This document shows, in pieces, positions 6,667 to 11,668 of a stretch of 64,000 nt of DNA. Within the stretch, counting starts at the first letter, position 1; every line of letters begins with the position of its first letter. The notes under the pieces are model-generated. The model saw only the letters and a list, made by a program, of their open reading frames with translations, was not told the origin of the DNA and searched no databases. The position numbers and the translations under genes are program-made. This DNA comes from Cetobacterium somerae (GTDB taxonomy: Bacteria; Fusobacteriota; Fusobacteriia; Fusobacteriales; Fusobacteriaceae): NCBI RefSeq assembly GCF_022430525.1, contig NZ_CP092519.1, positions 1,242,454 through 1,306,453 of the forward strand, in the 5' to 3' direction.

Positions 6667-6712
6667 AAATAAAACAGGAGATAGTTTTTAAATTATCTCC
6701 TGTTTTATTTTA
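6667..6712. terminator. Bidirectional terminator
   Basis: A 17-bp inverted repeat (AAATAAAACAGGAGATA and its complement) with an AT-rich loop separates the convergent aminotransferase and CstA-family genes. Confidence 0.9.
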
Positions 6713-8119
6713 TATAATTATTTTATCTGGTTCTTTGTTTACTTTAGCGTTTTTTAAACTAATAACTATCAATGCCAAAATAAAATTTAAAATTCCTATA
6801 CTATATACCAAGTACATATTATCTAATTTTAATCCTTCTGGTGCAACTAAAAAATAACAAGTAATCATTGCACTCATAAAAGCTGCTGGTATCCCTGCCA
6901 CCCAATAATTTCTTTTTTTCTCTATAAAATAATATGTACATGTCCATAAACCTAATGTTGCTAGCAATTGATTTGTAGATGCAACATATCTCCAAAGAGT
7001 ATTAAATCCAAATTGTGATAAAAAACCAGCTAATAAAAATAATGGAGTAGCTACTATTAATCTATTTTTCAATGAGCTTTGATTATAATTTAAAACTTCA
7101 GCAATTGTAACTCTTGCACTTCGAAAAGCTGTATCTCCTGTTGTAATAGGTAAAGCAATTAGCCCAAACAGTGTAAATACAAGTCCATATTTTCCTAAAA
7201 GTCCAGTGATCATTTTGCTAACAGCTACCATTCCCCCTCCACTTCCTGCTAACCCTTCTACTCCATTAAAAAATCCTAAAGATATAGCTGCCCATGTCAA
7301 AGCTACAAAGCCCTCTAAATACATAGCTGCCATAAATGATTTTCTTCCATCGTTCTCGTTTTTTAAACATCTTGCTACTAAGACTGATTGTGTCGAATGA
7401 AATCCAGAGATTGCTCCACATGAAATAACAACAAACATATAAGGAAATATTGGTAATTTTTTAGGATGCATATTTTCTAAAGTTACTTCTGGTATTTTTA
7501 CTCCTTTTATTAGCATTGCTCCAATTAATAAAAACATCATTAAAACTAAAGCTCCTCCAAACAAAGGATATACTCTTCCTATAATTTTATCAATAGGTAG
7601 AAGTGTTGCTACTATATAATACCCTACAATCAAAGTTAACCAAATCTCTTTGTTAATTCCTGTAAATGATTGTAAAATCTCTGCTGGACCTGTAATAAAA
7701 GCTACTCCAACTATAATTAATAATATAATTAAAAAATATTTAGTAAAAAGCTTTGCTCTATTTCCCAAATATTTTCCAATTAACTCCTGCATATTTTCAC
7801 CATTATTTCTCATAGAAATCATTCCCGTATAATAATCATGAACTGCTCCTGCAAAAATAGTTCCAAATACAATCCATAAAAAAGATGAGCTTCCCCACAT
7901 AGCTCCTGCTACGGCTCCAGTAATTGGCCCTAAACCTGCTATATTTAAAAATTGAACTAGAAAACTTTTAATCCAATTCATTTGTACAAAATCTACTCCA
8001 TCAGCCTTTAATAAAGCTGGTGTCTCTCTATTATCTACCCCAAAATTCTTTTCCAAATATTTTCCATATGTTAAATATGCAACAATTAAAATAACTACAC
8101 CAATAAAATAACTTTTCAT
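6710..8119 (-). CDS. CstA-family transporter (short form)
   Basis: The 469-residue, many-membrane-segment protein has the CstA signatures GPITGAVAGAMWG and FAGAVHDYYTGMISMRNNGENM near residues 65-105. It is shorter than the 700-residue E. coli CstA, as is common in clostridia and fusobacteria. CstA relatives import pyruvate or peptides; the substrate here is unknown. The ATG at 8119 is used because AAGGAGG lies 8 nt upstream; a TTG eight codons earlier overlaps that box. It begins 16 nt after ilvE and so should share the branched-chain leader control described at 9196-9267. Confidence 0.88.
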   Translation of the reverse strand: MKSYFIGVVILIVAYLTYGKYLEKNFGVDNRETPALLKADGVDFVQMNWIKSFLVQFLNIAGLGPITGAVAGAMWGSSSFLWIVFGTIFAGAVHDYYTGMISMRNNGENMQELIGKYLGNRAKLFTKYFLIILLIIVGVAFITGPAEILQSFTGINKEIWLTLIVGYYIVATLLPIDKIIGRVYPLFGGALVLMMFLLIGAMLIKGVKIPEVTLENMHPKKLPIFPYMFVVISCGAISGFHSTQSVLVARCLKNENDGRKSFMAAMYLEGFVALTWAAISLGFFNGVEGLAGSGGGMVAVSKMITGLLGKYGLVFTLFGLIALPITTGDTAFRSARVTIAEVLNYNQSSLKNRLIVATPLFLLAGFLSQFGFNTLWRYVASTNQLLATLGLWTCTYYFIEKKRNYWVAGIPAAFMSAMITCYFLVAPEGLKLDNMYLVYSIGILNFILALIVISLKNAKVNKEPDKIII

Positions 8120-8135
8120 AATTTCATCCTCCTTT

Positions 8136-9056
8136 TTACTCAACTATAGTTAACCACTCTCGATACTTTTCATTTTCGCCCTCAACTATTTTAAAAAACT
8201 CCTCTTGAATTTTTTTAGTTATCTCACCTCTACTTCCACACCCAACCTTTATATTATCTACAGAACTAACTGGTGTTATCTCCGCTGCTGTTCCTGTCAG
8301 AAATATTTCATCAGCTAAATATAAAAATTCACGAGGTAAAGTTTCATATTTTACTACTAAGCCTAAATCTTTAGCTATTTTAACTACTACATCTCTTGTT
8401 ATTCCTGCTAAAGATGAAGATGCCATTGGTGGTGTTAAAAGTTCTCCATTTTTTACAAGAAAAATATTTTCTCCACTTCCTTCACTTATATTTCCAAAAT
8501 AATCTAATGCTAAGCCCTCTTCAAACCCCATGTCTAAAGCTTCCATCTTTATCAGTTGAGAACTTAAATAATTTCCAGAAGCTTTAGCCAAAGCTGGTAA
8601 AGTATTTGGTGCCGGTCTTCTCCATGAAGATACACATACCTTTATTCCATTTTTCAGTCCTTCCTCGCCTAAATAAGCACCCCACTTCCAAGCTGCTATT
8701 ATAGCCTCTACTGGATTACATGTTGGATTTACTCCAAGTTGATTATAACCTCTAAAAATTAGTGGTCTAATATACCCAGCTTCTAATTTATTTATCTTTA
8801 TTGTATCTAAAACACCTTTTATAAATTCATTTTTAGTGTAAGGAACTTCCATTTTATAAATTTTACAAGAATCATATAATCTATCCACATGTTCTTTTAA
8901 TCTAAATACCGCTGACTTTCCATTCTTTAATTTATATAATCTTATTCCTTCAAAACATCCTGAACCATAGTGCAGCACATGTGATAATACATGCACTTTT
9001 GCATCATCATGCTCTTTTAATTCTCCATTAAACCAAATTTTTCCTGTCTCAATCAT
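8136..9056 (-). CDS. ilvE: Branched-chain amino acid aminotransferase
   Basis: The 306-residue fold-type IV PLP enzyme shows typical IlvE blocks: IWFNGELKEHDDAKVHVLSH, LHYGSGCFEGIR near residue 33, and the C-terminal GLALDYFGNISEGSGENIF and LTGTAAEITPV. It catalyses reversible transamination of Leu, Ile and Val with 2-oxoglutarate. The ATG at 9056 has GGGAGGAG upstream; a TTG five codons earlier sits in that site. It is the first structural gene of a unit with the CstA-type transporter and has a 240-nt leader encoding a Leu/Ile-rich peptide and a terminator. Confidence 0.95.
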   Translation of the reverse strand: MIETGKIWFNGELKEHDDAKVHVLSHVLHYGSGCFEGIRLYKLKNGKSAVFRLKEHVDRLYDSCKIYKMEVPYTKNEFIKGVLDTIKINKLEAGYIRPLIFRGYNQLGVNPTCNPVEAIIAAWKWGAYLGEEGLKNGIKVCVSSWRRPAPNTLPALAKASGNYLSSQLIKMEALDMGFEEGLALDYFGNISEGSGENIFLVKNGELLTPPMASSSLAGITRDVVVKIAKDLGLVVKYETLPREFLYLADEIFLTGTAAEITPVSSVDNIKVGCGSRGEITKKIQEEFFKIVEGENEKYREWLTIVE

Positions 9057-9080: not shown

Positions 9081-9120
9081 ATAATAAAAAAGGCTTGAAA
9101 TCTATATAGACTCAAGCCTT
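9081..9120 (-). terminator. Attenuator terminator in the ilvE leader
   Basis: Reading leftward, AAGGCTTGA (9120-9112) pairs with TCAAGCCTT (9098-9090), an inner TCTAT/ATAGA extends the stem, and TTTTATTAT follows. It lies between the leader peptide and ilvE. Confidence 0.85.
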
Positions 9121-9139
9121 AAAATACTTTTTTTATCGC

Positions 9140-9173
9140 TCAAGCCTTAAATTTGTACTAAAATAAGGCTTGA
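9140..9173 (-). promoter_or_regulatory. Upstream hairpin repeating the terminator stem (possible antiterminator arms)
   Basis: TCAAGCCTT (9173-9165 read leftward) and AAGGCTTGA (9148-9140) form a hairpin with the same stem sequence as the terminator at 9090-9120. The four arms are therefore mutually interchangeable, which permits alternative folds. Which alternative prevents termination is not clear from inspection. Confidence 0.6.
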
Positions 9174-9195
9174 ATACTTAGAAGAAAAATTTCGT

Positions 9196-9267
9196 CTAAC
9201 ACCAAACCATAGAGCTTATTATTATTATCAGTATTAATAAAAAGTTTATTTTAAATTTAGTGTTCAT
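9196..9267 (-). CDS. Branched-chain leader peptide (23 aa) for attenuation of ilvE
   Basis: An ATG at 9265-9267 with AAGGAGG upstream (9274-9280) opens a 23-codon frame ending in TAG at 9196-9198. Residues 10-17 read LLILIIII, followed by one Val at 21, so eight consecutive codons specify Leu or Ile. It lies about 28 nt after the predicted transcription start and upstream of two related hairpins, the second with a T run, before ilvE. This is the standard arrangement of ribosome-stalling attenuators of branched-chain amino acid genes. No peptide product is likely to function by itself. Confidence 0.75.
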   Translation of the reverse strand: MNTKFKINFLLILIIIISSMVWC

Positions 9268-9301
9268 TTTTTTCCTCCTTTTGTTTTTTTTATTAAGACA
9301 A

Positions 9302-9330
9302 ATAATAAACTATTTTTTTATAATTGTCAA
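9302..9330 (-). promoter_or_regulatory. Strong sigma-70 promoter of the ilvE leader transcript
   Basis: On the minus strand TTGACA (9325-9330), 17 bp, TATTAT (9302-9307). The spacing and -35 are consensus; transcription should start near 9295. Confidence 0.75.
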
Positions 9331-9398: not shown

Positions 9399-9427
9399 TT
9401 GCACAAAAAAGAATTTCTTGATATTAT
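9399..9427 (+). promoter_or_regulatory. Promoter of the nucleosidase riboswitch transcript
   Basis: TTGCAC (9399-9404), 17 bp, TATTAT (9422-9427), placing the transcript start within a few bases of the riboswitch P1 helix. Confidence 0.6.
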
Positions 9428-9431
9428 TTAT

Positions 9432-9500
9432 TTAGCTCATATATACCTCAAATACGGTGAGGAGTCTCTACAATCAACCTTAAATTGATTACTATGGCTT
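9432..9500 (+). ncRNA. Purine riboswitch, guanine/hypoxanthine class
   Basis: All aptamer parts are present in order: P1 (AGCT / GGCT), J1-2 ATATATA, P2 CCTCA/TGAGG around loop AATACGG, J2-3 GTCTCTAC, P3 AATCAA/TTGATT around loop CCTTAAA, and J3-1 ACTATG. The ligand-pairing base in J3-1 (position 74 of the usual numbering) is C, which selects guanine or hypoxanthine rather than adenine. CTCTAC in J2-3 (9466-9471) can instead pair with GTAGAG at 9529-9534, and TATACC at 9442-9447 with GGTATA at 9540-9545, so a mutually exclusive long hairpin ends just before the ribosome binding site AGGAGG at 9554-9559. Confidence 0.9.
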
Positions 9501-9571
9501 ATTAATATAAAAGTTAATAACTATTTATGTAGAGTTTTGGGTATACTTTATTTAGGAGGCAACACAAAACT

Positions 9572-10357
9572 ATGAAAAAATTTATCACAACTTTTTTACT
9601 ACTATCTTCAATCACTTTTTCAAAAGAAACTATTTTAATTCAAGGTGCTATGGATATGGAGGTTGATTATTTAATAAAAACTCTAAAAAATCCAACTAAA
9701 CAGCATATAGGTTCTTGGACATTTTGGAAAGGAAACCTTGGAAAACATGAAGTTATTGTTTCTAGAACAGAAGTTGGCTTAGTTAATGCTGCAGCTGCTA
9801 CAACTATTGGTATTGAAAAATATAAACCAACAATTATAATTAATCAAGGAACTTCTGGTGGACATGATTTTTCTTTACATACTGGAGATATAGTTTTAGG
9901 AACTGATATTATAAACATTGGAGCTATTCGAACAGAAAGAAAAGAAGAGGGCGTTCCAGAAAATATAAGAGATGGGATATTTTTTGATGTAGTTCAAAGA
10001 CTTAGAGATTCTAATAATAATCTTGTTACATATAAAAATTTTTCAAGCAACTCAAATTTAATTGAAATTGCTCAAAAAACTAGTTATTCTAATGGAAAAA
10101 TCTCTTTAGGTGTTATCGGTTCCGCTGATCAATGGAACAGAGAAATCGAAAGAATTAAATATTTAAATACAACATTTAAAACTCAAACTGAAGAGATGGA
10201 GTCAGTTGCAGTAGCTCAAATTGCGAAAGCTTATGATATTCCTTTTTTAGCTATAAGAGTTTTATCAAATACAGAAATACACAATGAAGAATTTAATCCT
10301 AAGACAGCTCTTTGGTGTCAAGAGTTTACTGTTAATGTTATAAATAATATACAATAA
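9572..10357 (+). CDS. Secreted nucleoside phosphorylase/MTA-SAH nucleosidase-family protein
   Basis: The 261-residue protein has a signal peptide (MKKFITTFLLLSSITFSKE) and then a PNP/MTAN fold. The pattern includes IQGAMDMEVDYLIKTL, VGLVNAAAATTIGIEKYKPTIIINQGTSGGH, TEEMESVAVAQIAKAYDIPFLAIRVLSN. EEMES near residue 209 is the ribose-binding glutamate motif of MTAN-like enzymes. It probably cleaves purine nucleosides to free base outside the cytoplasmic membrane. Control by a guanine-class riboswitch directly upstream supports a purine-salvage role. The exact substrate (MTA, SAH, inosine, guanosine) is undetermined. Confidence 0.88.
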   Translation: MKKFITTFLLLSSITFSKETILIQGAMDMEVDYLIKTLKNPTKQHIGSWTFWKGNLGKHEVIVSRTEVGLVNAAAATTIGIEKYKPTIIINQGTSGGHDFSLHTGDIVLGTDIINIGAIRTERKEEGVPENIRDGIFFDVVQRLRDSNNNLVTYKNFSSNSNLIEIAQKTSYSNGKISLGVIGSADQWNREIERIKYLNTTFKTQTEEMESVAVAQIAKAYDIPFLAIRVLSNTEIHNEEFNPKTALWCQEFTVNVINNIQ

Positions 10358-11348: not shown

Positions 11349-11430
11349 AAAAATAAAAACCTCCAATATTGATTTAATCCATAATTTATATGAACTTAAA
11401 TAAAAATTGAAAGTTTTCAACTTTAAAATA

Positions 11431-11497
11431 AGCCCATAGTAAGTTATTTACGGTAACTTGTAGAGACGTTTCACCATATTTGAAACATATATAGGAT
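11431..11497 (-). ncRNA. Purine riboswitch, guanine/hypoxanthine class (second copy)
   Basis: Read leftward: P1 CCTAT, J1-2 ATATAT, P2 GTTTCA/TGAAAC around loop AATATGG, J2-3 GTCTCTAC, P3 AAGTTA/TAACTT around loop CCGTAAA, J3-1 ACTATG, then GGGC. The ligand-pairing base is again C. Downstream, TTGAA-AACT-TTCAA followed by a T-rich stretch (about 11396-11419) is a weak candidate terminator serving as expression platform. Confidence 0.9.
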
Positions 11498-11668
11498 TTG
11501 TTATTATTATATATTATATTTATAAAAAAGTATAGTATTTTAATATACTCAATTTTTGTTAAATTATTTTTATTTTATTTATTTTTAAAAATATTTTTTT
11601 ATTTTTTCTTGACTTATTGAGTTTTTTTTCATAAAATTTAACTAACCAATATATCTTAGGAGGATTTT

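Follow-up and report, generated by a model that had tools for sequence, protein, structure and literature searches.

A predicted isoleucine-responsive leader-peptide attenuator family ahead of branched-chain amino acid and transporter genes in Cetobacterium

Leader-peptide attenuators of branched-chain amino acid (BCAA) genes have been established or predicted in several bacteria, among them E. coli. In E. coli ilvGMEDA and his, chains of alternating pairing segments are read by the ribosome on the leader ORF, the his chain being long. In the ilv-leu attenuator of S. aureus, which is not a T-box, a stretch of Ile and Leu codons lies in a leader 26 codons long, with a terminator downstream (PMC5794164). 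An ilvBNC reporter in Corynebacterium gave low expression in rich medium (PMC10272879). For the transporter family that enters the present case, E. coli CstA and BtsT were reported to take up pyruvate (PMC5847655, PMC7730263).

The locus described here lies in a window of 64,000 nucleotides of Cetobacterium somerae DNA (NZ_CP092519.1, positions 1,242,454 to 1,306,453 of the forward strand), and window coordinates are used throughout. An earlier note, made from the letters of this DNA, had described a consensus promoter, a 23-codon frame with a strong ribosome site, two hairpins that share the same arm sequences, the second with a T run, and ilvE and a CstA-type gene behind them. All of these features were located on the minus strand. 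We read the leader as an attenuator of transcription that acts through the translating ribosome and responds to charged tRNA-Ile, with Leu probably contributing; to this reading we assign a probability of about 0.87.

The leader in the window and its Cetobacterium paralogs

The features of the locus, in the order of transcription, are as follows.

9302..9330, minus strand: promoter, -35 TTGACA, 17-nt spacer, -10 TATTAT (11/12 consensus matches)
9274..9280, minus strand: ribosome-binding site AAGGAGG of the leader ORF
9196..9267, minus strand: leader ORF of 23 codons, MNTKFKINFLLILIIIISSMVWC*, with frame and Ile/Leu run conserved
9201..9208, minus strand: segment A (GGTTTGGT), within the last leader-ORF codons, partner of B in the antiterminator state
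9164..9174, minus strand: segment B (TTCAAGCCTTA), partner of A or C
9138..9149, minus strand: segment C (TAAGGCTTGAGC), partner of B or D
9109..9120, minus strand: segment D (AAGGCTTGAGTC), partner of C (antiterminator) or E (terminator)
9090..9102, minus strand: arm of segment E (GATTTCAAGCCTT), with T's onward to 9086
9086..9102, minus strand: segment E with the T run (GATTTCAAGCCTTTTTT), 3' half of an intrinsic terminator
8136..9056, minus strand: ilvE, branched-chain-amino-acid transaminase of 306 aa, ATG at 9056 (TIGR01122, E 5e-127)
6710..8119, minus strand: CstA-family transporter gene, 16 nt after ilvE (PF02554, E 1.2e-56)

The leader ORF of the window carries four consecutive ATA codons, and its RNA folded more stably than 200/200 dinucleotide shuffles (z = -5.0); in the full-length, ribosome-free fold the AAGGAGG site paired with the pyrimidine stretch between A and B. 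The terminator hairpin of this copy was not flagged by a simple terminator scan, which may be due to a bulged U in its stem, and is regarded as real because the leader is conserved.

Leaders were found in a family-wide search in 8 Cetobacterium genomes with the order ilvE-cstA downstream in 8/8, and the ilvE leaders of the seven genomes other than the window's were 81-98% identical to the window copy. A second copy in the window's own genome, 70% identical, precedes ilvD-ilvB-ilvN-ilvC; leaders of this kind stand ahead of ilvD in seven genomes, the window's included, with ilvB and ilvN following and with ilvC behind them wherever the sequence read extends to that point. A BASS/PanS-like transporter gene is preceded by the leader in four genomes, and a lactate dehydrogenase-family protein is encoded behind it in both loci with long enough sequence. 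The Cetobacterium set thus comprised 19 leaders (8 ilvE, 7 ilvD and 4 BASS).

Conservation of the small frame, its codons and its RNA, proposed in the earlier note as a check, was borne out in all three paralogous groups: the start, the ribosome site and the Ile run of the ORF were kept in the 19 leaders, and the TTGACA-type -35 was also present ahead of the ilvD and BASS leaders. The peptides read MNTK(F/L)K...L(I/L)IIII(S/L)SS.., MN(K/R)FKN..TIIIIICFWVWI and MNTNKK..LILIIIICSMV; every group has the Ile run, and the terminal residues vary by group (SSMVWC, CFWVWI, CSMV, SSSV) above an RNA that retains GGTTTG for pairing. Codon differences inside groups were synonymous in 30 cases and not in 62, so that synonymous ones do not dominate. 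In four genomes assigned to the same genus (G008, G011, G012, G013) neither a leader nor a close ilvE was found, which suggests that part of the genus lost branched-chain synthesis.

Other RNA elements were noted in passing. Two purine riboswitches (RF00167) lie in the window, at 9417-9514 (plus strand) ahead of a nucleosidase-like gene (9572-10357, plus strand) whose start resembles a signal peptide, and at 11417-11514 (minus strand) ahead of a gene for a BMP-family substrate-binding protein (11348-10380, minus strand); judged by the C before UAUG, both are apparently guanine-type, and the two genes are possibly a purine salvage pair. Elsewhere in the same genome (C1:1748555-1748601), a terminator-like hairpin AAGGCTTGA..TCAAGCCTT stands between two unrelated genes without a leader ORF and is probably a plain terminator.

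Pairing of the five segments and the proposed mechanism

The conserved switch predicted from all sequences is an alternation between A:B with C:D (antiterminator) and B:C with D:E (terminator). In 19/19 Cetobacterium leaders the D:E stem and T run form an intrinsic terminator between the leader ORF and the structural gene, and duplex energies were -8 to -11 kcal/mol for A:B, -12 to -17 for B:C, -13 to -17 for C:D and -15 to -18 for D:E. The cells of the alignment were paired to 97.8% (A:B), 99.3% (B:C), 100% (C:D) and 98.4% (D:E), and pairing in these four helices dropped sharply once columns were shifted by 1-3. Four pairs of D:E carry compensatory double changes between Cetobacterium groups, and where D varies, C keeps pairing with it via G-U/A-U exchange; double changes in A:B and C:D were absent among the 19 leaders of the genus. 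When the cores of other genera (described below) were added in a manual alignment, the four helices stayed paired to 95.6-98.8%, and double changes preserving pairing were counted at 3 pairs of A:B, 2 of B:C, 1 of C:D (dependent on one sequence, from g13) and 7 of D:E.

Segment A overlaps the leader stop codon or lies within 9 nt of it, and the Ile run precedes A by 10-20 nt. With isoleucine ample, the ribosome would pass the Ile codons, reach the stop codon and mask A, upon which B:C and D:E would form and RNA polymerase would halt at the T run ahead of ilvE. With charged tRNA-Ile scarce, the ribosome would stall at the ATA codons, which lie 10-20 nt before A, and would leave A free; A:B would then form, C would be released to pair with D, and ilvE-cstA would be transcribed for want of the terminator. 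On a ribosome-free leader the start region would pair with the end region, giving B:C and D:E and termination by default. We infer the stalling, the masking of A and the timing of folding from the classical mechanism.

Simulated folds were compared with this scheme. In ribosome-free folds, most representatives paired leader start with leader end and formed the terminator; in transcripts lacking E with A largely free, A:B and C:D folded in four representatives. Stalling was simulated with an assumed ribosome footprint of 15 nt behind the last Ile codon, and folds stalled at that codon gave no A:B with C:D in E_win, E_50, D_04 and D_43; the footprint hid A in the two ilvD cases because the last Ile codon there lies behind A. 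The free RNA of E_win favoured B:D, which in the window copy may act alongside C:D or in competition with it. The terminator state was the equilibrium minimum in every case folded, so that antitermination would have to be a kinetic outcome. A kinetic decision is usual for attenuators.

Leaders in other genera, the sensed amino acid and the transporters

When 98 genomes of the phylum were scanned with a covariance model built from the 19 Cetobacterium leaders, ten further loci were recovered in three more genera (E 4e-7 to 3e-4). A second model including these loci gave E-values of about 1e-8 to 1e-13 (best 7.5e-14) and one more locus; its E-values are inflated for its own training loci, and the independent values are those of the first model. 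Matches in G003:C6 and G054 (E 0.004-0.04) were taken as chance, there being no BCAA gene nearby. In other genera a leader ..NIIIIISSQVWTV precedes ilvA, a leader ..FFLIIILICSQV precedes ilvB-ilvN and a leader ..YVLISIIISGRLEE precedes ilvE-ilvD-ilvB, while in some large Fusobacteriaceae genomes (g4) a leader MSSNTLKTVIIYIHILLIS precedes an oligopeptide/nickel-type binding protein gene. The g4 loci (L064, L065, L066, L086) have Ile, Leu, Tyr and His codons in the leader and encode downstream the binding protein, a 393-aa membrane protein without an NCBIfam match and a gamma-glutamyltransferase. Upstream of ilvE in genus g14 (L217, L221, L229, L230, L231), a conserved leader of another type was seen (MRSIINISIVIIIIIISIINNISCDLYSTNS..), Ile-rich and followed by a terminator of its own; it was not recovered by the covariance models and for that reason may be a second, independent BCAA attenuator of the family.

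Taken over all genera, the element combines a conserved translatable ORF, a ribosome site and 3-6 near-consecutive Ile codons with an antiterminator that excludes the terminator and lies near the end of the ORF, its dependence on the ribosome being presumed. The genes downstream of the leaders are mostly BCAA genes (ilvE, ilvD-B-N-C, ilvA, ilvB-N, ilvE-D-B). The leader-peptide attenuator and the branched-chain link of the earlier note are strongly supported by the conserved ORF, run and RNA and by the ilvA, ilvB and ilvE leaders elsewhere. As to the signal, given there as Leu/Ile, the codon evidence favours isoleucine over an equal share of the two. The Ile run in other genera is written in mixed synonymous codons (ATT ATA ATA ATA ATT; CTC ATT ATC ATA CTG ATT), and in the ilvA leaders it consists of five Ile codons in a row without Leu; from these Leu-free runs we infer isoleucine as the common signal. 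IlvA catalyses the first step of Ile synthesis, which the Ile-only run of its leaders fits. Judging from the sequences, we propose that ilvE-cstA, ilvD-B-N-C and, in some species, the BASS transporter with the lactate/hydroxyacid dehydrogenase form one Ile-responsive regulon.

The window CstA-family protein scored 193 bits against PF02554 (gathering score 27) and belongs to the family; against the E. coli-type CstA equivalog NF011590 it scored 96.4 bits, short of the cut-off of 1188 (470 aa vs a 701-position model), so that pyruvate is only suggested as its substrate. The window copy shares about 50% identity with the CstA that is common in Fusobacteriaceae. In a tree, the ilvE-linked CstA of the 8 Cetobacterium genomes formed a separate, fully supported clade together with three proteins of 63-64% identity, which come from three genomes in another genus, one from each. 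Two of these three genomes were read, and in both the gene directly follows ilvC within an ilvD-ilvB-ilvC cluster. Two different BCAA neighbourhoods thus argue for a function of the clade in BCAA supply, and the tie drawn in the earlier note between the CstA-type transporter and branched-chain supply is supported by the ilvE-cstA order in 8/8 genomes, the separate clade and its kin behind ilvC.

Pyruvate is a BCAA precursor and is the compound taken up by E. coli CstA and BtsT, which makes its import the simplest guess for the window CstA. Branched-chain keto acids would be a bolder guess. Under the latter, the switch-controlled transporters (the CstA clade beside ilvE or ilvC, and BASS beside the lactate/2-hydroxyacid dehydrogenase) would import branched-chain 2-keto or 2-hydroxy acids from which IlvE and the dehydrogenase yield Ile, Leu and Val; we hold this to be tentative and rather unlikely. 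If true, transporters, IlvE and dehydrogenase would constitute a salvage route induced by isoleucine starvation. Behind the leaders at L036 (106-2061) and L039 (2107-4078), the BASS transporter is followed by the lactate dehydrogenase-family protein, for which L-lactate dehydrogenase scored highest and L-2-hydroxyisocaproate dehydrogenase (1hyh) stood lower in the list.

The earlier note had seen in the two hairpins a set of duplicated, interchangeable arms (1:2, 1:3, 2:4, 3:4), the duplication itself being the switch and 1:3 (B:D) competing with the terminator; the antiterminator A:B with C:D was absent from that scheme. In the window copy B:D reaches -16.7 kcal/mol, equal in strength to D:E, and was seen in simulated folds prior to synthesis of E, and C:E (2:4) pairs in 96.7% of cells. 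In the ilvD and BASS paralogs, however, B:D amounts to only -3.6 to -6.5 kcal/mol; their terminator arms differ in sequence, and C:D is retained in all. Pairing of B:D is 82.9% overall, with some pairs broken in about half of the sequences, and C:E would itself put a hairpin ahead of the T run. A strong B:D is confined to the ilvE copies, in which C and D happen to be alike, and the interchangeable arms, which these comparisons leave unsupported, are improbable as the basis of the switch.

T-boxes and riboswitches control BCAA genes in other phyla, and the leader RNA is well conserved, but a ligand-binding riboswitch or T-box in place of a translated leader is very improbable: Rfam searches with curated and loose thresholds returned chance matches and no credible family at the leader, RF00230 (T-box) matched neither there nor anywhere in the window's genome with control genomes positive, and the conserved Ile-codon ORF with its ribosome site, expected of an attenuator, would go unexplained. 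It is scarcely credible that a constitutive terminator stands between promoter and ilvE, with a functional small membrane protein expressed from the ORF and amino acids playing no regulatory role. Being hydrophobic, the peptide might enter membranes, but its C-terminus changes from group to group above an unchanged GGTTTG, and neither the recurrent association with BCAA genes across genera nor the alternating pairings would be accounted for.

Relation to described attenuators

The type of regulation is classical, and the sequence family is apparently new and undescribed in Fusobacteriota; a search of the accessible literature turned up no account of it for Fusobacteriota or Cetobacterium, and older papers on predicted attenuators may hold an earlier prediction. 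The attenuator reading gives Fusobacteriota a branched-chain attenuator family, in a setting where the one genome tested lacks T-boxes, and outlines a small regulon in the gut-bacterial genus Cetobacterium. By marking genes as isoleucine-controlled, the element ties two transporter families of uncertain substrate, one a CstA clade and the other a BASS protein, to the metabolism of branched-chain amino acids and makes their substrates testable. For the evolution of attenuators, the chain of five segments, with compensatory changes across genera, offers a clean comparative case.

The leader resembles S. aureus ilv-leu in its Ile/Leu run, the downstream terminator and the control of BCAA genes. 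The proposed S. aureus antiterminator spares the terminator stem and pairs with the poly-U tail, whereas here C sequesters D. CodY also acts in the S. aureus case (PMC5794164), and the likeness noted here is one of design. With the Corynebacterium ilvB-II motif and ilvBNC (PMC10272879) the present family shares a BCAA-rich upstream ORF and a terminator/antiterminator; unlike P1/P2 of Corynebacterium, where the ORF spans most of P1, the five-segment chain of Cetobacterium lies at and beyond the ORF end and occurs at several paralogous loci. The gene that follows ilvE shares its Pfam family with E. coli CstA and BtsT (PMC5847655, PMC7730263), but its product is far shorter and lower-scoring against the CstA model (470 aa vs 701 positions, 96 vs 1188 bits). 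In contrast to E. coli ilvGMEDA and his, the Cetobacterium attenuators belong to another phylum, are built from other sequences and stand ahead of transporter genes as well.
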